A stretch of DNA of 44,097 nt. Source: Gammaproteobacteria bacterium (GTDB lineage Bacteria; Pseudomonadota; Gammaproteobacteria; Ga0077536). Each line of letters opens with the position of its first letter. Position 1 is the first letter of the stretch. The notes under the pieces are model-generated. The model made no database searches. It was not told the origin of the DNA and worked only from the letters and a program-made list of their open reading frames with translations. Shown piece by piece: positions 12,720 through 31,003 of the stretch. The stretch is from contig JALRCR010000008.1 in assembly GCA_023257255.1 (NCBI GenBank), forward strand, positions 1-44,097, in the 5' to 3' direction. A program made the translations under genes and the position numbers.

Positions 12720-13739
12720 ATGAGCAGCATCACCATCGACGGGCCCTATTTCGAAGACTTTACCGTGGGCCAGACTTTCGCCGCCCCTTCGCTGACCGTC
12801 ACCGCCGGCCACGCCGCGGTCTACGGGGCACTGTTTGGCGACCGGATGCGCCTGCCGCTTGACCAGCACCTGTGTCGTCAGGTCACGGGCGATGAGCGCT
12901 GGCTGGCGCATTCGTATCTGGTCGTGCATCTGGCCGCCGGCCAGACGACCTACGCCTCACAGCACGTAAAAGGCAATCTCTTCTACCGCGGGCTGATGCT
13001 GCAGCGGCCGGTGTTTATCGGCGATTCTCTCTACACCACCACCAAGGTGGTGGGCCTCAAGCAGAACAAATCAAAGCCCGGCCGCGATGCGACCGGCATG
13101 GTGGCGCTGGAAATGACCACCGTGAACCAGCGCGACGAGGTGGTGCTGCATTTCTGGCGCTGCCCGATGATCGCCTGCCGCAATCCGGCCGCCGAAACCG
13201 GCCACAACGACGACTTCGGCTGGATCAAGAACAGTTTCTCCAGCGAGGAGTTGCAGGGCGCCCTGCCCCGCGGCTGGCACCTCGGGCCGATGGCAAGCGA
13301 GCTGCCGGGGCTGCGCGCGCCGGTGCTGAAAGCCGGCGATGAGGTCGACGTTGGCCCGCGCGACACCGTGACCTCGGCGCCAGAGCTGGTGCGCATGTCG
13401 CTCAACATTGCCTACACGCATATCGACGCCACCCGCAGCTATCTGGGTCAGCGGCTGGTTTACGGCGGACACACCATTTCCATCGCGCTGGCGCAGGTCA
13501 CGCGCGCCCTGCCCAACCTGCTCAGCATGATTGCCTGGCGCTACTGCGACCATCTGGGCCCGGTGCTGGAAGGCGACATCATCAGCACCCGCTTCAAGGT
13601 GCTGGACGTGGTGGACGCCGCAGCCGGTGGTCGACTGTATGACCTCGACATCGAGGCCTTCGCCACCCGCAAGGACGCCAGCGGTGAATACAAGACCGAA
13701 AAAGTACTGGCCTGGGGTCTGGTGACCTGGGGCGCTTGA
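12720..13739 (+). CDS. MaoC-like double-hotdog enoyl-CoA hydratase/dehydratase
   Basis: A 339-residue protein with two hotdog-like halves. The first half (about 5-150) begins GPYFEDFTVGQTFAAPSLT, followed by TAGHAAVYGALFGD, the usual MaoC entry. The second (about 195-339) contains AYTHIDATRSYLGQRLVYGG, then HTISIALAQVTRALPNL. Double-hotdog MaoC proteins hydrate bulky enoyl-CoAs, for instance sterol side-chain intermediates. A canonical D-x4-H hydratase dyad is not obvious to me; the His in GGHTISIALAQ is a candidate. It is the last gene of the rightward operon and would follow the acyl-CoA dehydrogenase step. Confidence 0.8.
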   Translation: MSSITIDGPYFEDFTVGQTFAAPSLTVTAGHAAVYGALFGDRMRLPLDQHLCRQVTGDERWLAHSYLVVHLAAGQTTYASQHVKGNLFYRGLMLQRPVFIGDSLYTTTKVVGLKQNKSKPGRDATGMVALEMTTVNQRDEVVLHFWRCPMIACRNPAAETGHNDDFGWIKNSFSSEELQGALPRGWHLGPMASELPGLRAPVLKAGDEVDVGPRDTVTSAPELVRMSLNIAYTHIDATRSYLGQRLVYGGHTISIALAQVTRALPNLLSMIAWRYCDHLGPVLEGDIISTRFKVLDVVDAAAGGRLYDLDIEAFATRKDASGEYKTEKVLAWGLVTWGA

Positions 13740-14850: not shown

Positions 14851-15633
14851 TTAGACGCCGGCGGTGTGGCCGCCGTCGACGGTCATGAGATTACCGTTCA
14901 TGAAGCGCGAGGCGTCTGAGGCCAGAAACACCAGGGCGCCGTCGAGTTCGGCGGGCTGACCAAACCGCTTGGCCGGCACCCGCTGACGCAGACGATCGCC
15001 GGCGGCGCTTGCCAGCCATTCGTCGTTCATCTCGGTGATGAAATAGCCCGGCGCCAGCGCGTTCACCCGAATGCCCTTGACGGCCAGATCGACGCAGAGG
15101 TCGCGACCCAGATTGATCAAGCCCGCCTTGGCCGCGCTGTAGGGCGCCAGATGCCCGATGGCGCGAATGCCAAGAATGGACGCGATGTTGATGATGCTGC
15201 ATTCACGCTGGTCGGCCAGACGCCGTTTGATGACTTCCTGCGCCAGCACCCAGGGGCCGCGCAAATTGGTTTCGTAGACTTCGTCCCACTCCTCGTCGCC
15301 CAGCTTTTCGGGGGCACGGGGCCGGGCGACGCCGGCGTTGTTGACCAATACGTCGATAGGCGCCACGGCCTCGGCCGCTGCGATACAGGCGCGGATGGCA
15401 CTGCGGTCGCGAACGTCCAGCGCGTAGACGTCGCAGAGCCCGCCTTCAGCGCGAATTTCCGCCGCCAGCGCGTGCATTTTGTCGGCCGTCCGGGCCGCCA
15501 TGGCCACCCGCGCACCCGCGCGCGTGAGGGTTTTCGCGAAATGTCGGCCCAGCCCGCTCGAGGCGCCGGTCAACAGGATGTGCTTGCCGGTAAGGTCAAA
15601 CAGCTGGCTTAGAAAAGATTTGGAATCGCTCAT
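14851..15633 (-). CDS. short-chain dehydrogenase/reductase (SDR)
   Basis: A 260-residue classical SDR. Cofactor motif TGASSGLG at 22-29, Arg48 after the second strand (AMAARTADK), suggesting NADPH, NNAG at 98-101, catalytic Ser152, and Tyr165-x3-Lys169 (YSAAK). The C-terminus carries the usual substrate loop and VDGGHTAGV. It resembles FabG-like and gluconate/3-oxoacyl reductases, so the substrate is a ketone or secondary alcohol that cannot be specified. The ribosome site is poor (GAGACC). It is followed 12 nt later by the OpgC-like gene. Confidence 0.93.
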   Translation of the reverse strand: MSDSKSFLSQLFDLTGKHILLTGASSGLGRHFAKTLTRAGARVAMAARTADKMHALAAEIRAEGGLCDVYALDVRDRSAIRACIAAAEAVAPIDVLVNNAGVARPRAPEKLGDEEWDEVYETNLRGPWVLAQEVIKRRLADQRECSIINIASILGIRAIGHLAPYSAAKAGLINLGRDLCVDLAVKGIRVNALAPGYFITEMNDEWLASAAGDRLRQRVPAKRFGQPAELDGALVFLASDASRFMNGNLMTVDGGHTAGV

Positions 15634-15962: not shown

Positions 15963-17282
15963 CTAGCGACCGGTGACGTTCAACTCGCTGGGCTCGAAGT
16001 CTTTCTGCTTCACGTTCGGCGGGTTGATAACGGTCATCATCTGCAAGGTCGTGCAGTGCATGTTCTGGAGATCGATCTGGGACGCGGTGTCCAGAATGGC
16101 GACGCCCGAACCCTTGTTCTCCGGCAGGTGATAGTCCGGGTGCGCCAGCCCAACCATACCCATTTTCCACAGCACACCCGCCTTGTCGTAGACCTTGCCC
16201 AGCACCGGGAAAGAGGTCTGCGCGTCGACGTAGAAGAAACGCTTGGACAGCGGGTGGTCGGCGCGCACCGGCACGCCCTCAACCACCCACACCTTGCGCA
16301 ACTGCCACTGAACCTTGGGGAAGCAGCCGGAGTGACCGGTGAAGTCCACAAAGCGATAGTCCGAATGCGAGGCTTTCTGCTCCGCCAGTTCGATCTGGTC
16401 GTGGCGATACATCGGCAGCATGACAAAGGACGAACCTTTGTAGCTCCAGGTCATGTCCTTGATACGACCGCTGTAGCCGAGGAAGTCCTCGATCATGATG
16501 TCGCTGCCCAGAAAGGCATCGGTACGCGCGGTGGTCGCCACGCGACGCACCCGGCGCAGCGTGGGCACGTACATCCAGCCCTGCTCGTCGGCGTTATCGT
16601 CAGCGTTATAGAAAATCAGCAGCCGGGTACCGCCCACATCCGCGGGGTCTTCTGCGGTCAAAATAATCGCGTTGAACACGTCGTATTTGTTCTTTTCGAG
16701 CGCCGGCATCGGCTCCACCACGTGACGGTACTTGAAGCGCATCGACGAGGCGGTAAAGGTCAGCACCCGTTCGAGCTTCTGGGCGCGCATGTCGCGGTAA
16801 CCCCAGTACATCTCGGGAATGGCGCCGCTGTCGCCGGCAAAGGCGTAGCGCATGTTCCAGGCCATCTTGTCGCCGACGCGCGGGTCATCCACGCTCGGTT
16901 CGCCGGGGAAGGGCTTGCCGGCGGTGTAATTCATCAGGGAACCCGCGCCCTCGCCCATCTGGGCTTGTCCGCCGTACTGCTGAGTCGCGGCGATGTAGTT
17001 GGCGTGCGGGTCGAAGGACAAGGATTCGCCTACCGGGAGGCTGACCCAGTCCTTGGCAATGAGGTCGGCAAAGTCGGGGTCCAGCAACTGCTTGTATTGC
17101 TCGACGTTGGTGGCGTTGATCACGGTGCCCGGGGGCGGCGACATTTCCTGCACCTGGGCGATATCAAAATCAAAATCGCCCGCGACGGCACCAGTCGACA
17201 CCAGTGCGGCCAGCGCGAGACCGCAGCGAAGCGGCCGACGGAACGGGCCGCGAGCGGCCTTGCTAAGCATTGAAACAAGCAC
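15963..17282 (-). CDS. exported DUF1329 protein, copy 1
   Basis: A GTG start at 17280-17282 is chosen because AGGA lies 8 nt upstream; an ATG 12 nt further in (17268-17270) is possible. The product is 439 residues with a Sec signal (LRCGLALAALVSTGAVAG). DUF1329 proteins (PF07044) have a LolA/LppX-like half-barrel that can hold lipid. Typical blocks are present: NYTAGKPFPGEP, MAWNMRYAF, GWMYVPTLRRVRR, GSDIMIEDFLGYSG and IDLQNMHCTTLQ. DUF1329 genes often accompany DUF1302, YCF48-like and RND genes in degraders of hydrophobic compounds. It is the last leftward gene of the cluster and a divergent paralogue of the one at 18730-20106. Role: periplasmic or outer-membrane lipid handling (inference). 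Confidence 0.85.
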   Translation of the reverse strand: MLVSMLSKAARGPFRRPLRCGLALAALVSTGAVAGDFDFDIAQVQEMSPPPGTVINATNVEQYKQLLDPDFADLIAKDWVSLPVGESLSFDPHANYIAATQQYGGQAQMGEGAGSLMNYTAGKPFPGEPSVDDPRVGDKMAWNMRYAFAGDSGAIPEMYWGYRDMRAQKLERVLTFTASSMRFKYRHVVEPMPALEKNKYDVFNAIILTAEDPADVGGTRLLIFYNADDNADEQGWMYVPTLRRVRRVATTARTDAFLGSDIMIEDFLGYSGRIKDMTWSYKGSSFVMLPMYRHDQIELAEQKASHSDYRFVDFTGHSGCFPKVQWQLRKVWVVEGVPVRADHPLSKRFFYVDAQTSFPVLGKVYDKAGVLWKMGMVGLAHPDYHLPENKGSGVAILDTASQIDLQNMHCTTLQMMTVINPPNVKQKDFEPSELNVTGR

Positions 17283-17372
17283 GTGGGAATTCCTGTGTTG
17301 GTGAAAACGGCGTCGCGTGCCGGCTACCCAGCGCACTGCGACGCGTTTGGTCAAGCTTGCAACGACATAAAC

Positions 17373-17390
17373 GGCGCCACGCTTGGCGCC
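17373..17390 (-). terminator. hairpin between the HEAT-repeat and first DUF1329 genes
   Basis: GGCGCCA-CGCT-TGGCGCC, perfect 7-bp arms, followed leftward by GTTTAT. Likely a weak terminator or processing/stability stem after the HEAT-repeat gene. Confidence 0.45.
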
Positions 17391-17448
17391 GCCGCCGCTG
17401 CCCTCAACCCATAGCCCGGATTATGGCCGCGCTTGGGGGCTGCATGCA

Positions 17449-18609
17449 TCAGGTTTCGATGCCCTCGACATACTGCCCGCCATTCATGTGAATGATTGAC
17501 CAGGCGGCCATGCCACGGATACCCGGGTCTTCGTCGGTCAGAAACGGCTTCAGGAGCGGGATAGCGTTCGCATCCTTGCGCTGTCCGATCATCCAGATGG
17601 TCTGCATACGCACATCGGCTTCGGCGTGGTTCAAGCCCCAGGCATAGACCGAAGTCGCGTCCGCATTGATGAAGCCCCAGGATTCCAGCACGCGGGTTGC
17701 GGCATCGCCCTTCAGCTTGCAGCAGCCGATCAGCGCCTGCGTTAGCTGCAGCGCCATCTTGGGCGGCAGGCGCTTCAGCGCGCCGGCCATCACCGTGGCC
17801 TCCATGGGCGTGCCGTAGCCGATGGTCTGAATGATTCGTCCCTGCGAATCTTCGTCGCCCAGGCCTGCATGGCTGGCCACTGCCGCCAGCGCGACCCGCG
17901 TATCCTTTTCCTTGGCGAGTTGCTTCAAGGCCGACCGCGCGTCCTTGGAGTCCACCAGCCCCAGCGCAACGGCTGCCACTTCACGAATGTCGGCGTTGCC
18001 GGAAGTGGCCGCCTTCACAAAATCTTTGCCCATCTCCTTATGCCCTTCGGCAAGCAGCGCGTAGCTGGCATAGGCCTTGATGACGTTCGAGCTTTTGGGC
18101 TCGGCCAGCAGCTTCTGCAACTCCACCGACTCGTCTGCACCGCGCGCCCGCACCAGCGCCTGCAGAGCATGCCGCTTCACAAAATCGCTTTCCTGATGCA
18201 GTGCCTTGACCAGCAGTTCGCCCATATCGTCACGCGGCACCGAGGCCAACGATTCCGCCATCAAGGCGAGCACTTCGGGTCTCTCGGACGCCGTCTTGAA
18301 CAGCAGGTCAATGCTATTGGGGTGGGTGGCCGTGATCAGCGTATCGATAGCCGAGCGCTGGACCACGGTGTCGTCCACGGTGAGGCAACGCTGCAAGACC
18401 TCGAGCGCCTTGGTGTCGCCGACATCGGATAAGGCGCCAGCGGCGAGAATCCGGTCGTAAATATCTTTCGACGCCATCATCTGTCGCGCCACCTGCACCG
18501 CCTCGTACAGCGTGCGGTCGTGCGTTGGTGGCGCATCGGCGGCGTGGGCCATCGCGGTGGAAAACAACAGCGCGAGGCCGGTCGACCGAATCAGGTTCTT
18601 GATGTTCAT
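17449..18609 (-). CDS. exported HEAT-repeat protein
   Basis: Start at ATG 18607-18609 (MNIKNLIRSTGLALL), with CGGAG upstream; this gives a clean Sec signal ending AMAHAADA near residue 26. The rest of the 386-residue protein is a run of about 30-residue helical hairpins of HEAT/PBS-lyase type, such as RILAAGALSDVGDTKALEVL, REVAAVALGLVDSKDARSAL and VRMQTIWMIGQRKDANAIPL. Such repeats are protein-binding scaffolds, and no enzyme motif is visible. It lies between the two DUF1329 genes on the same strand, so it may organise periplasmic partners of the DUF1302/DUF1329 system (inference). Confidence 0.85.
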   Translation of the reverse strand: MNIKNLIRSTGLALLFSTAMAHAADAPPTHDRTLYEAVQVARQMMASKDIYDRILAAGALSDVGDTKALEVLQRCLTVDDTVVQRSAIDTLITATHPNSIDLLFKTASERPEVLALMAESLASVPRDDMGELLVKALHQESDFVKRHALQALVRARGADESVELQKLLAEPKSSNVIKAYASYALLAEGHKEMGKDFVKAATSGNADIREVAAVALGLVDSKDARSALKQLAKEKDTRVALAAVASHAGLGDEDSQGRIIQTIGYGTPMEATVMAGALKRLPPKMALQLTQALIGCCKLKGDAATRVLESWGFINADATSVYAWGLNHAEADVRMQTIWMIGQRKDANAIPLLKPFLTDEDPGIRGMAAWSIIHMNGGQYVEGIET

Positions 18610-18661
18610 GCGAGCACTCCGTTGGACTGTCATTGTGATCCTCGACAGACGCCAAGGGTTC

Positions 18662-18691
18662 AAAAAAAAACGGGCCGCATACGCGGCCCGT
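18662..18691 (-). terminator. rho-independent terminator after the second DUF1329 gene
   Basis: Read leftward, ACGGGCCGC pairs with GCGGCCCGT around a 4-base loop, then comes a run of nine U. This is a strong intrinsic terminator, so the HEAT-repeat gene needs read-through or its own promoter in the 50 bp that follow. I see none with good consensus. Confidence 0.9.
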
Positions 18692-18729
18692 TCATCAAAC
18701 ATGGCGCCGGTTACCCGGCGCCATTGGCC

Positions 18730-20106
18730 TTAGCGGCCTTCCGTCAGATAGTTCACGTCCAGAATCTTCTTGACCTCGTTCAGGTCGGTCGCCGGAGCGG
18801 CGATACCGCGGCAAGGCACCAGCGTGCCACGCTTGTTCTGAAGGTCGATCACGTTGATGGACTGGAACACGCTGAACTGCGTACCAGCGGGCGTCGGCTT
18901 GGCCTTGAAGGCGCCAGTCTGATGCCCCTGGAACTGCGGGTCTTCGCTCCAGGACTTGGACAGCTGCCACACTTTCCACAGCTTGCCCGCCTTGTCGAAC
19001 GCGTTGGAGTAGTAGCACTCGCCGGTCACACGGTCGATGTGCAGGTACTTCAGCGAGTACGGGTGGTTGGAGCGCTTCGGGGTCTGCTTCAGGATGTCGA
19101 CCTGGCGCAGCGCCCAGTCGTCCTTCATCGCCCAGCCGTTCGGGCCGTAGTAGACCGCGTCGGTGTTGCGCGAACGAGCCACGGCGAGTTCCTTGGCGGT
19201 TCCCACGTATTCCCACTCGTGTTCCAGCGGACGGCCGTTAAAGCAGTAGAAGTCTTCCAGCGTGTGGTCGGTGCCGAGCAGGGAGTCAGACTTCACTTCC
19301 ACCGAAATACGGCGGACGCGACGGAGGCTGGGGATGTACGCCCAGGAGTCGTCAGACTTACGCGGATCGTCGTAGCGCAAGATCAGGAACGCGGTACCCG
19401 CGATGTCGAACGGCGAGGTGAAGCCGGTGTATTCGCGGAACTCGGTGCCCTTGGCGAAGCCTTCGCCGTTGTTGACCTTGTAGTTGGTGTCCGGCAGGTC
19501 AGAACGGTGCGAGAACATCACGCGGCGATACGGGCCGGTGAGCACGCGCTCAAAGCTACCGCCGCCTTCGTAGAACTTGGCGTATTTGCCGCCGTCCTGG
19601 CTCATCACTTCGTGGCCAGAGTGTTCGCCGCCTTCACGGACCCACACCCAGTGCACTTCACCGACCGACAGGCCGGCCAGCTGCCAGCGGAAGTTCCAGT
19701 TCCAAGCCATCTTGGAGCCGTCTTCTTTGCTGCCCGGGGTGAAGGTGGCCGGGTCGAACGGACGACCAGCGGTGTAGTTTTCCAGCGCGCCGTCGGAGGC
19801 GATGGTCGCGGTGCCCTTGAACTTCTCGGTCGCGGCCTGATAGGCCGGGGCCGGGGTCAGGTCGCCCGCGTCCTTAATCTTCACTTCCATGCCGTCGAAA
19901 ATCTGGATTTCCTGATATTCAACCGGGGTGAAGGGCTTGATGAGGTCAGCCTTGTCGAAGGTGATGGTGTCGCCATCAACAAACTGCGGCTGGGCGTCGG
20001 CGTTGGCCTTGATCCACGCGAGGTGGTCTTCCGGCGTATAGGCGTTGGAGACCAGCGGCTGCACAGCGAAGGCTGCAAGCAGTGCCAGACGTAGGGAATT
20101 TTTCAT
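18730..20106 (-). CDS. exported DUF1329 protein, copy 2
   Basis: Start at ATG 20104-20106 (MKNSLRLALLAAFAVQ) behind GAGGAG; the signal peptide probably ends at SNA near residue 22. The 458-residue product shows the DUF1329 blocks ENYTAGRPFDP, MAWNWNFRWQ, DSWAYIPSLRRVRR, GTDHTLEDFYCFNG, ALRQVDILKQTPKRSNHPY and INVIDLQNKRGT. The fold is thought to be a lipid-binding half-barrel of LolA type. It lies 114 bp downstream of the DUF1302 gene, the most usual partner of this family. It shares block order with copy 1, but much of the intervening sequence differs, suggesting separate ligands or positions in one pathway. Confidence 0.88.
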   Translation of the reverse strand: MKNSLRLALLAAFAVQPLVSNAYTPEDHLAWIKANADAQPQFVDGDTITFDKADLIKPFTPVEYQEIQIFDGMEVKIKDAGDLTPAPAYQAATEKFKGTATIASDGALENYTAGRPFDPATFTPGSKEDGSKMAWNWNFRWQLAGLSVGEVHWVWVREGGEHSGHEVMSQDGGKYAKFYEGGGSFERVLTGPYRRVMFSHRSDLPDTNYKVNNGEGFAKGTEFREYTGFTSPFDIAGTAFLILRYDDPRKSDDSWAYIPSLRRVRRISVEVKSDSLLGTDHTLEDFYCFNGRPLEHEWEYVGTAKELAVARSRNTDAVYYGPNGWAMKDDWALRQVDILKQTPKRSNHPYSLKYLHIDRVTGECYYSNAFDKAGKLWKVWQLSKSWSEDPQFQGHQTGAFKAKPTPAGTQFSVFQSINVIDLQNKRGTLVPCRGIAAPATDLNEVKKILDVNYLTEGR

Positions 20107-20187
20107 TAAGTAAGCTCCTCGTTCTCTTGTGTACATTTTAGTTCCGCCCCGCCCGGCTTAGGTTCAAGTCCGGACGGGGAGGAAAGA

Positions 20188-20204
20188 GGCTGCGCGTGGC
20201 AGCC
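20188..20204 (-). terminator. hairpin between the DUF1302 and second DUF1329 genes
   Basis: Read leftward, GGCTGC-CACGC-GCAGCC is followed by TCTTTCC. A 6-bp stem with a short pyrimidine tail suggests partial termination or 3'-end stabilisation of the DUF1302 transcript. Confidence 0.4.
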
Positions 20205-20220
20205 CCTTTTGACCGCTACC

Positions 20221-22527
20221 TTAGAACTGGTACTTCAGCTGCAGGAACACTTCGTCATTGTCGCGCAGCGCGCCAATGCCTTCATGCGCCACACCGAACA
20301 CCGACTGGTTGTACGGGTTGGTACCCGTGGCACCCGGCACTACGAACGAGCCGAACGGGCCCGCATCGTGACGCGCGTTGGTGGTACCACCCCAGATGGT
20401 GTTGAAGCCGCCCTTGATGGACCAGTGGTTGTCGAGCAGCCATTCCACGCTCTGACCCGCCACCCAGGAATTGGAGGCGTCTTCCCACACGATGAAGCCG
20501 ACCGGCTTCACGGTATCGCGGAAGTAGTTCGCGATGTAGAAGAAGGTGGTGATGAAGTTGTGCTCGTCGACGAACATGCCGTCGTGCTTGCCGCCGTCGT
20601 GATCCAGATACCAGGTATCGAAGATCTGCATCGACAGGAAGAACGTGCGGTCCTTGTTCAGCCACTTGATCCAGGTCGGACGGTCAAGACCGATAGACCA
20701 ACGCATAACGTCGCTGGTGTCGGTCCAGTCCGGACGACGGGTGTTGTTCACGAGTTCGTCAACGGTAAATGACGACTCAATGCGGAACACCACACCGGAG
20801 TTGGCTTCAAACCAGTCGAAAGACAGACCGGTCGTGCTGGCCTGCTTGTACTGGATGTCGGTCTGGCCGCCCGGAAGACCGGAAGCAAACCAGAAGTCCG
20901 CCGCGTTGTTGTTGGCAAGCGCAGTGCGGGCCAGTTGAGCCAGCTGCGGGTTGGCCGCACCGTTCGCGTAGGCGTTCAGGGCGTCCTTCGGCGACATTAC
21001 GCGAATCGGGATAACGCCCGGGGTCGCGCCGCTGATGTTGGCCGCAATCGGGCTGACGCCGCCAGAGCCGGAACGCGGGGTGACGCAGCCGGGGGCCGCG
21101 GCATTACGCGCACAGACGAGGTCGTACACCAGCCAGTCCTGCTTGCCCGGACCCGCCGGACCATTCTGACCGTAGCCGGGAGCTGCCAGACCGAGCGCGC
21201 CGTTTGGCACGTTCACGCTGTGGAAGCGGAAGACCGGCACGTCGTTCCAGCCGTAGAACTCGGAAATCGCGACGTGGAACTCGCCAACGCGGAATTCCCA
21301 ACGCAGGCCGGGTTCCGTGTTCTCGATTTTCCATTCCGGACGATCTTCGTAGCTCAGACCCACCGGCTGACCGAAGCCAGACGGCCTGCGGCGGTCGCCC
21401 TTGCCTTTGGAACCGCAGACGTCGCGGGCACCCATGCCGTTGGCGATTGCGGTGGCAGCGGACACGCAGGGTTCAACCGAGAAGTACTCGTTGAAGGCCG
21501 CGAAGGTGGACTTTTCCTTGGCGAAAGGGTGACCCCAGGCCGCGTTCGGCGCACCAAGACCAATGCCCTTGAACTCGTCGAAGTTCCAGATCAGCTGCAC
21601 GGCGTTGTCGGTGGTCGGACCGATGTCGCCGAACTTGCGCTGGATAGACATGATCCACTGCGGAATACGGATGTCTTCAAACGAATCAAAGAAGAAGTGC
21701 TGGCCGAAGTCGACCGGGTTCACCAAATCCTGCAGGCGGAAGAAGTCGGTCTTGCCCCACACGATCTGCTGCTTGCCGACGCGGAACCACCAGTCCCCCA
21801 CCGTCGCGTCTACATAGAGTTCGCGGAACGGATAAAGGTTGTCGACCGAGTCGCCGTTGTTGAGCGCCACTTCCAGCGGGTCAACGTCAACGTTCGTGCA
21901 ACGCTTGCAAGCAAGTTCCTGCTGGCCAAGCGTGGACAGCACGGGGAACGCGCTTTCAGGCGCGATGCCAGAGCCAAGGGTGAACTTGTTCTTGCTCGGG
22001 GTGCGGTTGAGGATGGTTTCGAAGTTACGGTCAATCCAGCCCGGTTCTTCCAGACCTTCGGCAACGATTTTGCCGATACCGCCGGTGTTGTAGGTGTTCT
22101 GACCGGTGCCGCCGAAGAAGCCGCCGACGTAGTCAAAACCACCGTAGCCGACCGGGTCGCTGGTCGCGGTGAACTTGTCGCCCATGTAGGACGGCTGGTT
22201 GCCGCCGTTACCGCGGCCGTTGAACGAGTCGCCGTAGTAATAGGCGGCGTCGAATTCAGGACGGATAACCGTGACGAAGCTCAGGGTGTCGAACGGGCCG
22301 ACGCCGGAGTAGTTCAATTCCGCGTTCAGTTCGAACTTCTGAATCCACTGGGTGAGGTAGGTTTCGCCCGCACCGACGCGCGCACGCGCTTCGGAGCTCA
22401 GCGCCCCCTCAAGTTTCACCTCACCACCGAGTGCATCAATCATGATGCGGGCTTCGGCCGGCGCTGCTACCAGCAGCGCGGTCGAGACCGCCGCACTCAA
22501 TGACAAAGCGCGAAATGTGCTCTTCAT
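20221..22527 (-). CDS. DUF1302 outer-membrane beta-barrel protein
   Basis: Start at ATG 22525-22527 (MKSTFRALSLSAAV) with GGGAGA upstream. The 768-residue precursor has a signal peptide ending at AEA near residue 26. The mature protein is rich in alternating strands with Tyr/Trp girdles and ends in LQLKYQF, the C-terminal aromatic typical of BAM-inserted barrels. Blocks such as FRELYVDATVGDWWFRVGKQ, IVWGKTDFFRLQDLVNPVDF and NHWSIKGGFNTIWGG match the DUF1302 family (PF06980). Family members accompany DUF1329 proteins in degraders of steroids and other hydrophobic compounds and are suspected transport pores. A CxxC (ACKRCT) in an extracellular-type loop is unusual for a barrel. It is first in the leftward cluster, with a long leader. 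Confidence 0.9.
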   Translation of the reverse strand: MKSTFRALSLSAAVSTALLVAAPAEARIMIDALGGEVKLEGALSSEARARVGAGETYLTQWIQKFELNAELNYSGVGPFDTLSFVTVIRPEFDAAYYYGDSFNGRGNGGNQPSYMGDKFTATSDPVGYGGFDYVGGFFGGTGQNTYNTGGIGKIVAEGLEEPGWIDRNFETILNRTPSKNKFTLGSGIAPESAFPVLSTLGQQELACKRCTNVDVDPLEVALNNGDSVDNLYPFRELYVDATVGDWWFRVGKQQIVWGKTDFFRLQDLVNPVDFGQHFFFDSFEDIRIPQWIMSIQRKFGDIGPTTDNAVQLIWNFDEFKGIGLGAPNAAWGHPFAKEKSTFAAFNEYFSVEPCVSAATAIANGMGARDVCGSKGKGDRRRPSGFGQPVGLSYEDRPEWKIENTEPGLRWEFRVGEFHVAISEFYGWNDVPVFRFHSVNVPNGALGLAAPGYGQNGPAGPGKQDWLVYDLVCARNAAAPGCVTPRSGSGGVSPIAANISGATPGVIPIRVMSPKDALNAYANGAANPQLAQLARTALANNNAADFWFASGLPGGQTDIQYKQASTTGLSFDWFEANSGVVFRIESSFTVDELVNNTRRPDWTDTSDVMRWSIGLDRPTWIKWLNKDRTFFLSMQIFDTWYLDHDGGKHDGMFVDEHNFITTFFYIANYFRDTVKPVGFIVWEDASNSWVAGQSVEWLLDNHWSIKGGFNTIWGGTTNARHDAGPFGSFVVPGATGTNPYNQSVFGVAHEGIGALRDNDEVFLQLKYQF

Positions 22528-22563
22528 TGTGTTGTCTCCCATTTTTCCCTCTTAACAGATCAC

Positions 22564-22581
22564 CCCGGTCCAAAAACCGGG
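22564..22581 (-). promoter_or_regulatory. leader hairpin CCCGGT-N6-ACCGGG, overlapping a longer-range repeat
   Basis: This local stem lies about 40-55 nt upstream of the DUF1302 start. Part of it also belongs to a 10-bp inverted repeat, GGTCCAAAAA (22567-22576) with TTTTTGGACC (22621-22630). The two pairings cannot form at once, which is the layout of a switchable RNA leader, although no U-rich terminator is evident. Confidence 0.4.
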
Positions 22582-22650
22582 TGTATTCACACCATCGCCA
22601 GGCCGGTGCCCTTGCCGCGTTTTTTGGACCTGTTACCGCGATTGGGCAGT

Positions 22651-22662
22651 GACAGATCTGTC
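22651..22662. promoter_or_regulatory. 12-bp perfect palindrome GACAGATCTGTC, candidate operator
   Basis: A perfect palindrome in the divergent gap, five bases from the larger dyad at 22668-22690. Palindromes this size often bind dimeric regulators; no cognate regulator is adjacent. Confidence 0.4.
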
Positions 22663-22667
22663 GAGCA

Positions 22668-22690
22668 CGGATGGACCCCGATTCCATCCG
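22668..22690. promoter_or_regulatory. dyad CGGATGGA-N7-TCCATCCG, candidate operator
   Basis: Perfect 8-bp arms around a 7-base spacer, centred in the DUF1302/flavin reductase divergent gap. The arm size and half-site spacing suit a TetR- or GntR-like dimer. The protein that would bind is unknown. Confidence 0.45.
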
Positions 22691-22963
22691 AGTGTGGCAT
22701 AGCTGTTGTAAATCGTAAACACTCATTTCCGCGTTAAACCGATTTCGGCCAGCCATGTTGTACGGACACCACAAAGTGGCGCGGAAGCGATTTACCCTGT
22801 GGCCACCCACCGCGCCTGAAGGGTGCGGATTTGTCGGTCGGCGCGGCTCAGGCCGGGGCGCAATTTTCGCGATAGGCGACCTTCGTGCCGGCATGTACCA
22901 TGCGGCGCCGTACGTATCCGGGCGCGAATGCGCCATCCCACCTTTTCAGATGACGGGGTTCTC

Positions 22964-23458
22964 ATGTCTAGCTTCTCTGCCGACGAATTTCGCAAAGCCT
23001 GCGGCGCCTGGGCCAGCGGCGTTTCCATCGTGACCACCCGGGACACCGACGGGAAACCCTACGGGCTGACGATGAACGCGGTGACCTCGTTGTCGCTCGA
23101 CCCGCCGCTGTTCGTGATCTGCGTCGACAACAAGTCCGAGACGCTCGAACCGATGAAGCGCAGCCGGCTCTTTGCCATCAATATTCTGGCCAGCGACCAG
23201 CAGGCCCTGTCCAACGGCTTCGCCAAGAAGAATCCGGACAAGTTTGCCGAAGTGTCCTTCGAATGGGGGATTATCGGGGCGCCCCTGTTGACCGGTCGCC
23301 TTCTTGGGCTGGAGGCCGAAGTCACGGCCATCTACCCGGAAGGCGATCACCATATTTTTGTAGGAAAAATAGTGAGTTTGACGCCTTCGACCGATCCTGC
23401 GGCGGCGCCGCTCCTGTATTACCGCGGCCGCTACGCGGCGCTGGAAGCGGCGGGCTAA
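22964..23458 (+). CDS. flavin reductase (FMN-binding split-barrel, HpaC-like)
   Basis: Start at ATG 22964 (MSSFSADEFRK), which gives the usual 164-residue size; in-frame upstream sequence is Arg/Pro-rich and not family-like. Family blocks: FRKACGAWASGVSIVTTRD, GLTMNAVTSLSLDPPLFVIC (the FMN-binding strand-loop), SRLFAINILASDQQALSNGF, HHIFVGKIVSL and LLYYRGRYA near the C-terminus. These NAD(P)H:flavin oxidoreductases supply FMNH2 or FADH2 to a partner monooxygenase. No oxygenase is adjacent; the LLM-class enzyme at 1-753 is the only flavin-oxygenase candidate in the window. It is transcribed divergently from DUF1302 and precedes the YCF48-like gene. Confidence 0.92.
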   Translation: MSSFSADEFRKACGAWASGVSIVTTRDTDGKPYGLTMNAVTSLSLDPPLFVICVDNKSETLEPMKRSRLFAINILASDQQALSNGFAKKNPDKFAEVSFEWGIIGAPLLTGRLLGLEAEVTAIYPEGDHHIFVGKIVSLTPSTDPAAAPLLYYRGRYAALEAAG

Positions 23459-23478
23459 ACAACTCGTTCCGGATTGTC

Positions 23479-23508
23479 TTGTCTGCACGGAAGGCTTGTT
23501 GCTATGGT
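23479..23508 (+). promoter_or_regulatory. weak sigma70-like promoter candidate for the YCF48-like gene
   Basis: TTGTCT (4 of 6 matches), an 18-base spacer, then TATGGT (4 of 6). It lies 84 bp upstream of the chosen start, in the 133-bp gap after the flavin reductase gene. Confidence 0.35.
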
Positions 23509-23591
23509 ACGGGCAGATACGAGGGGGGAAGCTGGCCACCGCAGAGCCGGTTTCTATCGCTGATTTCAGAATAACCGTGAAGGCTCGCACG

Positions 23592-24830
23592 ATGCAGAAT
23601 TGCGCTAAACGTCCCACCATCAAATCCCTGTTGCCCGCACTTCTGCTGGCCTCCAGCACCTCGGCTTTCGCAGCCAGGGAAGAACTGCCGGACAACCGGA
23701 CTCCGCTGGTTCTGGATTTCACTACCGCCACCTACCTCCCCGGTGAAAATGGCGTCCTGGTTGCCGGTTTGCACGGCCTGCTAGGCACGCTGCAGGTTAG
23801 CGAGAGCGGTGAAGCCACGCTTAAGAAGTTCGAAGCGGACGAAAACATCGATTTCACCACCGTCGAGAAGCTCACCGACAGCGAAGTGCTGCTGGGATCT
23901 TCCACCGGCCACATCTTCCTCTTCGACGGCAAGAGCAAGCCGGCTGACCTCGGCAAAATCACCGAGTTCGAAGAACCGGTGCTGGATATCGCGGTGTCCA
24001 ACGGGCAGGCCTGGGCGGTGGGCGCCCGCGGCATGTTGGCAAAGAGCGCTGACGGCAAGAAGTGGGAAGTGGTGACGATTGCCGAAATCACCCAGCCCGA
24101 AATCAAGCTGCCAGCCACCAATGCCAGCGAATGGTACTTCGGCGTCAGCAACCTGCTGGCCGATACAGTCAAGCTGACCGCCACCAAGGGCGGCGCTCCG
24201 CTGGTCGCTGATACCGACTACACCCTGTATCCGGACGAAGGTTTCATTCAGATCGCGAACGATCTGGACGCCGAACCTGCGCCGTCAATTGCCTTCAAGT
24301 TCCAGCCGGGTCCGGCTTTCAAGATCGGCGACGTCTCCTGGAACGTCGTGATGTTTGACGGCCAGAACGTCACGCTCGCCGGTGAGTTCGGCATGATCGT
24401 GCAGAGCAGCGACGGCGGCCAATCCTGGACCCGTCGCGACGCCGTGCTGACGCCGAAAGAGCCGGAACAGCCTTACTGGATTACGGGCTCCAATCAGGGC
24501 AGCAACATGTTGCTGGTCGGTGCGGCCGGTGCGGTTCACAAGAGCGTCGACGGTGGCGTGACCTGGAATCGCCTGCCGGCACCCAGCGCGGAAGGCCTGT
24601 TTGGCGTGACCATGCTGCCCGACGGTACGCCGGCGGTGGCCGGTGCGGTGGGCATGATCGGCCTCTATCAGGGCGAGAAGTGGGAACTGGCCGACCGTAC
24701 CAAACTGCAGCTGCTGTCCTGGTTGAAGAACCCGGTTGCGATGCCCGACGGTTCCCTGCTGCTGCTGGGTGGCCGCCAGACCGTGATCCGTTACAAAGAC
24801 GGTGCCTGGTCGCGGGTGACGGTGAAGTAA
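23592..24830 (+). CDS. exported YCF48/BNR-repeat beta-propeller protein
   Basis: Start at ATG 23592 (MQNCAKRPTIKSLL), with GAAGG upstream; the signal peptide ends at AFA near residue 27. The mature part of the 412-residue product has propeller repeats of YCF48 type, with the sialidase/BNR-like S-x-D-x-G-x-x-W motif: AKSADGKKWEVV, VQSSDGGQSWTRR and HKSVDGGVTWNRL. Family members near DUF1302/DUF1329 genes are annotated as photosystem II stability-like factors, but the bacterial proteins have no link to photosynthesis. They are probably periplasmic assembly or partner proteins. It ends in a strong hairpin. An RND transporter gene, often found next to this family, is missing in the window. Confidence 0.85.
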   Translation: MQNCAKRPTIKSLLPALLLASSTSAFAAREELPDNRTPLVLDFTTATYLPGENGVLVAGLHGLLGTLQVSESGEATLKKFEADENIDFTTVEKLTDSEVLLGSSTGHIFLFDGKSKPADLGKITEFEEPVLDIAVSNGQAWAVGARGMLAKSADGKKWEVVTIAEITQPEIKLPATNASEWYFGVSNLLADTVKLTATKGGAPLVADTDYTLYPDEGFIQIANDLDAEPAPSIAFKFQPGPAFKIGDVSWNVVMFDGQNVTLAGEFGMIVQSSDGGQSWTRRDAVLTPKEPEQPYWITGSNQGSNMLLVGAAGAVHKSVDGGVTWNRLPAPSAEGLFGVTMLPDGTPAVAGAVGMIGLYQGEKWELADRTKLQLLSWLKNPVAMPDGSLLLLGGRQTVIRYKDGAWSRVTVK

Positions 24831-24913: not shown

Positions 24914-26392
24914 ATGTCTACCCCGCCCCGTCTTGCGAGCGCCGTCATGGTCACGACCGGCACGGCTGAAAATTTTCGCGTGCTGCTGGTCCAGCGCTCC
25001 ACCGAACTGAAATTCTTCGGCGGTTACTGGGCTTTCCCGGGCGGTGCCTCCGAAGCCATGGACCGCACAGCCGCGACACTCGCAAGCCTGAGCTGCGGCG
25101 TGCGGGAGTTGCTGGAAGAGACCTGCCTGCTGCCGGACGCCCTGGGTCTGGATCTGGGCGACGCTAACGCGCTGCTGGCCATCGCCGCCGATGACAACAG
25201 CGCGCGGGCGCGCTGGCACGAGGCCATCGCGGCCGTCCAGCAGAGCGGTTCGGTGACCGAGGTCTGTCGCATCACCACCCCGGCGCACAACCCTATCCGC
25301 TTCGCCACCGATTTCCTGCGTCTGCATCAGCGCGACGCCGGACCGCCCACGCTGGATGGACGCGAGCTCGTTGACTGGTGCTATCTCACGCCGGCCGAGG
25401 CGGTAGCCCGTTGGCAACGGGGCGAAATGCCCATCGCCCCCCCTACCCTGCTGTTGCTCGAATTGATGGCCGCGCATGGACCGGAACAATTTGTCGCACC
25501 GGCCCGCGAAGCCGCGGCCAGTTTTGATGCGGGTAGCTTTCACCCGGCGCGCTTTTCGCCGGGCATTTTCACCGCACCTGTCGCCACCCCGACCCTGCCG
25601 CCGGCCACCACCACCAATTGCTACATCGTGGGGACGCACGATCTGTATGTGGTCGACGCAGCGGCGGTTCATGCCGAAGACCAGCAACGTCTGATCGATA
25701 AACTGGAAAGCCTTTGTCGCGACGGTGCGCGTGTCTGCGGCCTCCTGCTGACGCATCATCATCGCGACCATACCGGTGCGGTGGCCGTCCTGAGTCGGCA
25801 CTTCAAGGCGCCGGTACGCGCGCACGCGCTGACCTATGCCCAATTGCCCGATCCCGACTATATCCGCGGCGAGCCCCTCGCCGAGGGTGACATCATTCCG
25901 CTGGGCGTCGCGCCCGATGGCACGCCGGGCTGGCATCTGGAAGTCATGCACACGCCGGGTCATGCGCGTGATCACCTGTGTTTTATTGATAGCCGTTACC
26001 GCGCGGCAATCGTGGGCGACATGCTCTCAACCATCTCCACGATCATCATCGACCCGCCAGAAGGCCACATGGCGACCTACCTGCGCGAACTCGAGCGTCT
26101 GCTCGCGCGCCCGATGACCACGCTCTATCCGGCGCATGGGCCTGCGCATCGCGACGGACATGCGCTGCTCCGGCAGTTCATCGCGCATCGACGGGGACGC
26201 GAACAAAAGGTCATTGCGGCGCTAAGCCAAGCCCCGCAGTCGCTGGAAGCCTTGCTGCCGAATGCATACGGCGACGTGGCGCCGGCGGTCTATGGCGCGG
26301 CCTTGCGCTCCTTGCTGGCCGGTCTGGAAAAGCTGGCCGAGGACGGCGTTGCGCGCGAAACCGCAGACGGCGACTGGCTGCTCGCGACCTGA
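24914..26392 (+). CDS. NUDIX hydrolase - metallo-beta-lactamase fusion
   Basis: Start at ATG 24914 with AAGGAG upstream, 492 residues. The N-terminal domain (1-190) is NUDIX: FPGG at 41-44 and RELLEE at 64-69. Spacing between the two is longer than the standard NUDIX box, as in NUDT19/NUDT7-type CoA diphosphatases. The C-terminal domain (about 225-492) is a metallo-beta-lactamase fold: His281, His283, Asp285 and His286 in THHHRDHTG, His350 in HTPGH, Asp369 in VGDM and His408 in YPAHG, followed by an LACTB2-like winged-helix tail. LACTB2 relatives cut RNA; other MBLs hydrolyse thioesters. The fusion could link CoA-ester hydrolysis with CoA breakdown, but this is inference. Confidence 0.88.
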   Translation: MSTPPRLASAVMVTTGTAENFRVLLVQRSTELKFFGGYWAFPGGASEAMDRTAATLASLSCGVRELLEETCLLPDALGLDLGDANALLAIAADDNSARARWHEAIAAVQQSGSVTEVCRITTPAHNPIRFATDFLRLHQRDAGPPTLDGRELVDWCYLTPAEAVARWQRGEMPIAPPTLLLLELMAAHGPEQFVAPAREAAASFDAGSFHPARFSPGIFTAPVATPTLPPATTTNCYIVGTHDLYVVDAAAVHAEDQQRLIDKLESLCRDGARVCGLLLTHHHRDHTGAVAVLSRHFKAPVRAHALTYAQLPDPDYIRGEPLAEGDIIPLGVAPDGTPGWHLEVMHTPGHARDHLCFIDSRYRAAIVGDMLSTISTIIIDPPEGHMATYLRELERLLARPMTTLYPAHGPAHRDGHALLRQFIAHRRGREQKVIAALSQAPQSLEALLPNAYGDVAPAVYGAALRSLLAGLEKLAEDGVARETADGDWLLAT

Positions 26393-29785: not shown

Positions 29786-31003
29786 CTAGCCGGCGGGCCC
29801 GCCCAGCAGTCGTCCTACAATCTCGCTGGCGATAGGCAGCGCCGCGGTGGCCGCCGGCGACGGCGCATTGCAAACGTGCAGGCTACGCGCGGTCTGGCGG
29901 AGCAGAAAATCGTGGATCAGCTGGCCCTGCGGCGAGACGGCCTGGGCGCGGATCCCCGACGGCCAGGGCGTAAGGTCCTCCAGCCTCAGTGCCGGGCAGT
30001 AGCGCCGCGCGGCGTCCAGGTAGCGCTGCGGCGACAACGCGCAACCCAGTTCGCGCAGGCCCGCCGCCGGATAGCGCGCCAGTAGCCGCCAAAGGCCGGC
30101 ATAGCCCGCCATGTCGCGCAGATCCCGCCAGTTGCAGCCCGCCTTGCGATAGTCCTCGCGCGCCAGTGCCAGCATGGCGCTGGGCCCCAGCGTGACGCTG
30201 CCGTCGATCATGCGCGTGAGATGGATGCCCAGAAACGGCAGCGCCGGATCGGGCACCGGATAGATCAAATGCCGCACGATGCCGGAGTGGCGATCGGGCA
30301 GCCGGTAGTAGTCGCCGCGAAACGGCACGATGGCAAAGTCGGGCACCAGCCCGCTGGCGCGCAGCAGGCGGTCGGCTTGCAGGCCCGCGCACACCACCAG
30401 CCGTTGGGCGCTGATTGCGCCGCGAGCGGTCTCGACGCGGACCCGGTCGGCGGATTCGCGGATGCCGAGCACCTCCGTGCCGAGTTGCAGTTCGCCGCCG
30501 TCGGCCTGAATGCGCCGCGCCAGCGCCGCGCACAGCCCGGGGTAATCAACGATGCCCGTTTCGCTTACCAGCAGCGCCGCCACGCCGGCAATTGCCGGCT
30601 CTTCGGCCTGCACTTCCGCGCCCTCCAGCCAGCGCACGGGTGCGCCGTTCCGGCCCGCACGCTCGGCCAGCGCCCGCAGACGCGGCACCTCTGAAGGATC
30701 GACCGCGACGATCAGTTTCCCGCATTGTTCGAAAGCCACCTCGTGCTCGCGGCAAAAGGCGATGGTCGCTTCAAGGCCTGCCCGGCACAGACGCGCCTTC
30801 AGGCTGCCGGGCTCGTAGTAGACGCCGGCGTGAATCACCCCGCTGTTGTGCCCGGTCTGGTGGGCGGCGACGCGGTCGGCCTTGTCCAGCACCACGACAC
30901 TCGCGCCCGGAACGCGCTGTTGCAGCGTCCTCGCGGTAGCAAGCCCGACAATGCCGGCGCCAATGACGAGGAAATCGGCGGTGGACTCGCGGGTGATGCT
31001 CAT
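29786..31003 (-). CDS. lhgO: L-2-hydroxyglutarate oxidase/dehydrogenase
   Basis: A 405-residue FAD enzyme of the DAO family. GAGIVG Rossmann motif at 15-20, then HQTGHNSGVIHAGVYY at 48-63, which is diagnostic of LhgO/L2HGDH. PFRGDYYRLP and the C-terminal NAPSPAATAALPIA also fit. It oxidises L-2-hydroxyglutarate to 2-oxoglutarate and passes electrons to oxygen or quinone. It begins 9 nt after the GlcD-like flavoenzyme gene and is third in a leftward operon behind that gene and an unknown protein. Having oxidases for both 2-hydroxyglutarate enantiomers side by side is uncommon. Confidence 0.9.
   Translation of the reverse strand: MSITRESTADFLVIGAGIVGLATARTLQQRVPGASVVVLDKADRVAAHQTGHNSGVIHAGVYYEPGSLKARLCRAGLEATIAFCREHEVAFEQCGKLIVAVDPSEVPRLRALAERAGRNGAPVRWLEGAEVQAEEPAIAGVAALLVSETGIVDYPGLCAALARRIQADGGELQLGTEVLGIRESADRVRVETARGAISAQRLVVCAGLQADRLLRASGLVPDFAIVPFRGDYYRLPDRHSGIVRHLIYPVPDPALPFLGIHLTRMIDGSVTLGPSAMLALAREDYRKAGCNWRDLRDMAGYAGLWRLLARYPAAGLRELGCALSPQRYLDAARRYCPALRLEDLTPWPSGIRAQAVSPQGQLIHDFLLRQTARSLHVCNAPSPAATAALPIASEIVGRLLGGPAG

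Follow-up and report, generated by a model that had tools for sequence, protein, structure and literature searches.

An exported HEAT-repeat protein is a fixed extra member of a DUF1302/DUF1329 envelope cluster in one family of the order Ga0077536

Introduction

DUF1302 and DUF1329 proteins still carry the label 'unknown function', though both have been tied to the use of oily compounds. In Castellaniella defragrans, the AmeABCD system comprises a DUF1302 barrel (AmeA), a DUF1329 protein (AmeB), a YCF48/COG4447 protein (AmeC) and an RND protein of the HAE3 family (AmeD). Deletion of ameABCD impaired growth on monoterpenes, lowered the tolerance to apolar monoterpenes and raised the accumulation of Nile Red (PMC6394551). 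In Pseudomonas putida, PP_0765, PP_0766, PP_2018 and PP_2019 are required for the metabolism of Tween 20, and contacts between DUF1302 and DUF1329 and between DUF1329 and RND have been predicted for this system (PMC10866462). A further system that includes an RND protein contains BstC, a helical ring that binds sterols (PMC10942540), and the RND relatives HpnN and BstA are movers of hopanoids and sterols (PMC6394551, PMC10942540).

Ga0077536 is treated as an uncharacterised gammaproteobacterial order. Members with hydrocarbon-degradation genes have been reported from coastal sediments (PMC13410759) and methanotrophy has been considered possible (PMC12636513). A locus from this order is described here in which an exported HEAT-repeat protein accompanies DUF1302, DUF1329 and YCF48-like proteins.

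Gene content of the cluster

The window, the whole stretch of 44,097 nucleotides that was analysed (contig C538), belongs to a MAG of 3.9 Mb in 549 contigs, with a completeness of 87% and a contamination of 6%. A preliminary description had placed six genes in one envelope cluster. All six open reading frames (ORFs) were located again, with Pfam matches exceeding the curated cut-offs. The minus strand carries in a row the genes for DUF1302, DUF1329b, the exported HEAT-repeat protein and DUF1329a, with the flavin reductase and YCF48-like genes divergent from them on the plus strand. The same gene order was found again in 21 loci of the family and the row is thus more than a chance arrangement.

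The DUF1302 gene (ORF 20221-22542, 773 aa; likely gene 20221..22527, likely start MKSTF at 22527) gave a PF06980 match of 63.8 bits spanning its full length. It is followed by DUF1329b (ORF 18730-20136; likely gene 18730..20106, likely start MKNSLR at 20106), a LolA-like protein of a second DUF1329 subfamily (PF07044 117.5 bits, LolA_like 63 bits), and by the HEAT gene (ORF 17449-18702; likely gene 17449..18609, likely start MNIKN at 18609; HEAT_2 101 bits). DUF1329a (ORF 15963-17354; likely gene 15963..17270, likely start MLSKAARG at 17270) closes the row and encodes an exported LolA-like periplasmic protein of the AmeB type (PF07044 211.6 bits, PF17131 LolA_like 62 bits). On the plus strand, the cytoplasmic flavin reductase (ORF 22823-23458; likely gene 22964..23458) matched Flavin_Reduct PF01613 with 134.5 bits, and an HsaB-like model with 130 bits, below the model cut-off of 230. 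The exported YCF48-like beta-propeller of the AmeC type (ORF 23496-24830; gene 23592..24830, likely start MQNCAK at 23592) matched PSII_BNR/YCF48 (PF14870) with 44.9 bits. It is the one YCF48 match in its genome and is related to the YCF48 copies of canonical cassettes. The flavin reductase gene is its conserved partner in the family loci, the YCF48 gene following wherever the contig reaches, and in several relatives the flavin reductase adjoins a luciferase-like monooxygenase (LLM) gene.

N-terminal export signals, read by eye from the likely starts, were found in all products except the flavin reductase: MNIKNLIRSTGLALLFSTAMAHA before ADAPP in the HEAT protein (a signal peptide of about 23 aa), MKNSLRLALLAAFAVQPLVSNA before YTP in DUF1329b and MKSTFRALSLSAAVSTALLVAAPAEA before RIM in DUF1302. 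A sigma-70 scan of the region, uninformative for such a lineage, gave no promoter-like site. Elsewhere in the window, a single plus-strand ORF after YCF48 (24914-26392) combines NUDIX and metallo-beta-lactamase domains, the latter with a winged helix, and an L-2-hydroxyglutarate oxidase gene on the minus strand (29786-31003; NF008726, 552 bits with a cut-off of 299) adjoins a GlcD-like FAD oxidase gene.

RND partner and outer-membrane barrel

The RND partner had been described as absent, which holds for the window and not for the genome. Beyond the window, nine relatives and the genome G010 were found to have an RND gene next to DUF1302, on its upstream side. Homologs of the relatives' in-cluster RND lie in the own genome on contigs C488 (76-77% identity) and, as a second copy, C110 (68%). 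The RND gene of the window's genus thus lies outside the cluster; its loss was rejected. For the in-cluster RND of the relatives the best NCBIfam match was HAE3 (TIGR00921) at 141 bits, short of the 352-bit cut-off, which makes HAE3 the nearest family but no full assignment. These cluster-type RNDs form a clade of their own beside the canonical AmeD-like RNDs (38-41% identity). A different type of RND gene, with a short DUF1329/LolA-like gene directly behind it, was seen on own contig C59 (L022 4254-7368).

As modelled, DUF1302 is an outer-membrane beta-barrel. The AF2 model (pLDDT 65, a moderate confidence) shows many long beta strands, and the Foldseek PDB matches listed were outer-membrane barrels or derivatives of them.

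Two DUF1329 subfamilies

The two DUF1329 genes had been regarded as duplicated, a view that did not hold up: the proteins share 26% identity, fall in separate clades of the tree and represent two old, distinct subfamilies. DUF1329a shares 39-47% identity with homologs outside the family, several of them in canonical cassettes, and clusters with the DUF1329 of canonical YCF48-RND-DUF1302-DUF1329 cassettes; the AmeB-type clade is defined through these cassettes, AmeB itself lying outside the tree. DUF1329b clusters with tandem DUF1329 pairs of own contig C477 and of genome G016. A local duplication was rejected on these grounds. DUF1329b stands between DUF1302 and HEAT in 12 of the 21 family loci and is missing from the other nine. 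The constant pair is thus HEAT with DUF1329a, and DUF1329b is an addition or, less simply, was lost repeatedly. The tandem pair on C477 (L019 7159-12572) has LLM genes on its flanks, and that of G016 (L149 8626-11499) is similar to it.

A conserved terminator-like hairpin

Between DUF1329b and HEAT, a terminator-like hairpin with an 11-bp stem and a T tail was found on the minus strand (18668..18693; fold z -5.8 for the stretch), parting DUF1302 and DUF1329b from HEAT. A hairpin of this type occupies the junction before HEAT in 20 of the 21 family loci. Position and pairing are conserved and the stem sequence is not, with stems such as GGGCCGC/GCGGCCC, GGAGGGC/GCCCTCC, GGCGGAAGG/CCTTCCGCC and GGGAGGC/GCCTCCC among the loci. 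At four other junctions the same type was rare (1/11, 1/19, 1/15 and 0/12, or 0-9%). Since the hairpin is conserved at this junction and rare at the others, RND-DUF1302-DUF1329b and HEAT-DUF1329a-SDR are likely to be separately tuned units. Immediately ahead of the hairpin at 18668-18693 there is another perfect one (GGCGCCGGGTAACCGGCGCC).

The ancestral layout was likely YCF48-flavin reductase, with or without LLM, divergent from RND-DUF1302 and an optional DUF1329b, then the terminator, then HEAT, an optional NUDIX gene, DUF1329a, an optional HSL esterase gene and SDR.

Proposed function

The cluster is probably (at roughly 60%) a lineage-specific variant of the hydrophobe-transport systems of the AmeABCD and PP_0765-0766-2018-2019 type, with an 11-repeat HEAT alpha-solenoid added. 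An HAE3-type RND pump would sit in the inner membrane and the DUF1302 barrel in the outer membrane, with LolA-like DUF1329 carriers and the YCF48 propeller in the periplasm. A hydrophobic substrate would be passed among barrel, carriers and RND, between the outer membrane and the cell. Given the precedent of the two described systems, and by analogy with them, such a passage is the most likely role; that there is transport, in which direction and of which substrate, we infer. The preliminary description had proposed a linked envelope cluster of a type tied to hydrophobic substrates, and to that extent it is supported. Against the variant reading stands the predicted terminator, with which HEAT and DUF1302 would be only partly co-transcribed. 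The fast evolution of HEAT, the low HAE3 score and separate clade of the cluster-type RNDs, and the incompleteness and contamination of the MAG also count against it.

The same parts could serve efflux, a toxic hydrophobic substrate or its intermediates being pumped out as proposed for AmeABCD, with the HEAT protein stabilising a trans-envelope assembly. The reduced tolerance to apolar monoterpenes and the increased Nile Red accumulation of the ameABCD deletion speak for such a detoxifying role (PMC6394551), but the need for PP_0765/0766 in Tween 20 metabolism fits supply rather than tolerance (PMC10866462), and linkage to catabolic genes is compatible with both. Efflux is considered rather unlikely here, though it is the foremost of the alternatives.

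Structure of the HEAT protein

The HEAT protein is predicted with high confidence to be an 11-repeat alpha-solenoid (AF2 model with pLDDT 88.6 and pTM 0.85; 22 helices forming 11 two-helix repeats). In HEAT solenoids the second (B) helix lines the inner face, and HEAT folds bind proteins in most cases. The B helix is more conserved than the A helix in all 11 repeats, and the four conserved Trp are all within the last three. Among structures, the toroidal solenoids of Rpn1/Rpn2 matched best (Z about 15, rmsd 6.4, some 335 residues aligned); this was taken as a shared arrangement only, as Z values of 13-16 are near the level common for helical repeats. BstC was not among the structure matches listed. 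PDB sequence matches were for the most part artificial repeat proteins (alphaRep and other designs) and hence uninformative on function. Assignments as NblB (52 bits, NCBIfam cut-off 300), as phycobilin lyase CpcE (29 bits, cut-off 330) and as TIGR02270 (score far under the cut-off) were rejected.

Under the transport reading, the HEAT protein would be a curved piece in the periplasm, for docking or as a carrier, and would most likely work with the AmeB-like DUF1329a. This partnership is proposed because the two genes stand side by side behind the conserved terminator and the inner-face helices are conserved; contact with any part of the system is likewise a proposal. A more tentative suggestion is that the solenoid, constant within this one uncultured family, represents a periplasmic component of a new class in RND-driven transport of hydrophobes, which may carry substrate or bridge the DUF1329 shuttle and the pump.

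Alternatively, the HEAT protein could itself be the carrier of a hydrophobic ligand, a ring-like helical binder in the periplasm with a role like that of BstC and not a protein scaffold. The conserved inner B helices, the clustered Trp and the toroidal matches are all consistent with it, as is the precedent of a sterol-binding helical ring in an RND-containing system (PMC10942540). Against it, the Z values are little above the arrangement that helical repeats have in common, and HEAT folds mostly serve as protein binders. BstC is TPR-like and was rejected as a HEAT homolog. A carrier function of this kind is judged unlikely.

Distribution and conservation of the HEAT protein

The exported HEAT protein is a fixed extra member of the system across one family of the order Ga0077536. 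Orthologs were found in 22 of the 36 sampled family genomes, plus one fragment at a contig end. A class-level sample of 369 genomes yielded three, all of this family, the remaining matches being partial and set in open frames some 800 aa long. Two strict peptide patterns, which distant forms may escape, were run against 84,980 species genomes and hit 20 HEAT loci, which correspond to genomes of the family. No ortholog was found outside the family in the class sample, in this pattern scan, on plasmids or in canonical cassettes, in the last case even at E 0.01.

Window-type DUF1302 occurs in 23 family genomes and shares the presence pattern of HEAT, contig-end truncations aside: in the two genomes with DUF1302 and without HEAT the DUF1302 gene is cut by the contig end, and in the two with HEAT and without DUF1302 the contig ends close to HEAT. 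Eleven family genomes, four of them at least 95% complete, have neither. In 21 of 21 family loci the gene just upstream of HEAT is DUF1302 or DUF1329b, and DUF1329a follows HEAT wherever the contig continues, sometimes with a NUDIX gene between. The preliminary description had pointed to the exported HEAT protein and had named a HEAT gene not conserved with the cluster as refuting its idea; the neighbourhood survey of these loci found the gene kept with the cluster, and the idea survived.

The HEAT protein might still be a passenger, an unrelated exported protein that stands beside the cluster through shared descent. Its gene lies behind the strong terminator-like hairpin, and it is among the fastest-evolving members of the cluster (71% identity to the closest relative, compared with 93% for DUF1329b). 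However, the order is kept in several genera down to 31-37% identity, HEAT is missing where the cluster is missing, near-complete genomes included, and the gene is under purifying selection (w 0.13-0.27). It persists while RND, NUDIX, esterase, LLM and DUF1329b are variably present. A passenger is thus improbable. Gene-tree congruence was rejected as HEAT-specific evidence, being high for nearly all gene pairs through shared vertical descent.

Catabolic neighbourhood

Downstream of DUF1329a, an SDR dehydrogenase gene on the minus strand (14851..15633) is kept in those family loci whose contigs extend that far. A MaoC-type hydratase gene on the plus strand (12720..13739), convergent with SDR in many relatives, marks the far end of the conserved block. 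Together with an HSL-type esterase, flavin reductase, LLM monooxygenase and CoA-transferase, these are the conserved neighbours in relatives. Such enzymes would suit a route in which an alicyclic or terpenoid ketone is oxidised to an ester, followed by hydrolysis and CoA-dependent breakdown. Export of an endogenous hopanoid- or sterol-like lipid, or its placement in the outer membrane, with the catabolic neighbours incidental, is suggested by the activities of HpnN and BstA (PMC6394551, PMC10942540) but is very unlikely, as these neighbours are not lipid biosynthesis genes.

For the LLM monooxygenase of the cluster, a search of the own genome gave no close ortholog (best match 41% over part of the sequence), and own contig C22 encodes an esterase with 61% identity to that of the cluster. 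About 30 LLM matches are spread over many contigs, which looks high for 3.9 Mb. Outside the family, five loci showed the standard arrangement YCF48-RND-DUF1302-DUF1329 without HEAT, and a Pseudomonas veronii plasmid carries a HEAT-free canonical cassette with phenol hydroxylase genes nearby. In the family member G015 the HEAT cluster coexists with a YCF48-RND-DUF1329-DUF1302 cassette that lacks HEAT.

Comparison with known systems

No description of a HEAT protein in such a transport system was found in the open-licence literature. Three features are new: the HEAT protein is a constant addition, the RND gene lies away from the cluster, and a terminator-like hairpin is conserved. A variant shared by a whole family, in which one periplasmic protein is added, the RND gene can move and a transcription boundary is conserved, offers handles on which parts travel together, which DUF1329 is the core one and what the HEAT protein partners with. 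It also links a specific envelope route to an uncultured order reported to have genes for hydrocarbon degradation (PMC13410759).

BstABC of Methylococcus capsulatus likewise pairs an RND-family protein of the inner membrane with a periplasmic protein that is all-helical and ring-like (PMC10942540), but BstC is a TPR-like TRAP T-component and not a HEAT protein, and the system was described without DUF1302, DUF1329 or YCF48. The P. putida system also has DUF1302 and DUF1329 at one locus, with transporter and periplasmic protein at another, and these split loci resemble the placement of RND on another contig here. It differs in that a HEAT protein was not reported there and in its known substrate, Tween 20. 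Compared with AmeABCD, the locus has in addition the exported HEAT protein, a second DUF1329 subfamily and the flavin reductase. The four Ame-type genes are not contiguous: YCF48 is read divergently, a different contig carries RND, and HEAT and the hairpin are inserted between DUF1302 and DUF1329a. The AmeABCD-type parts themselves are all represented, namely DUF1302, the LolA-like DUF1329a of the AmeB clade, an exported YCF48/COG4447-like protein and, elsewhere in the genome, an RND with HAE3 as its best, sub-cut-off match, and in both cases degradation genes adjoin.
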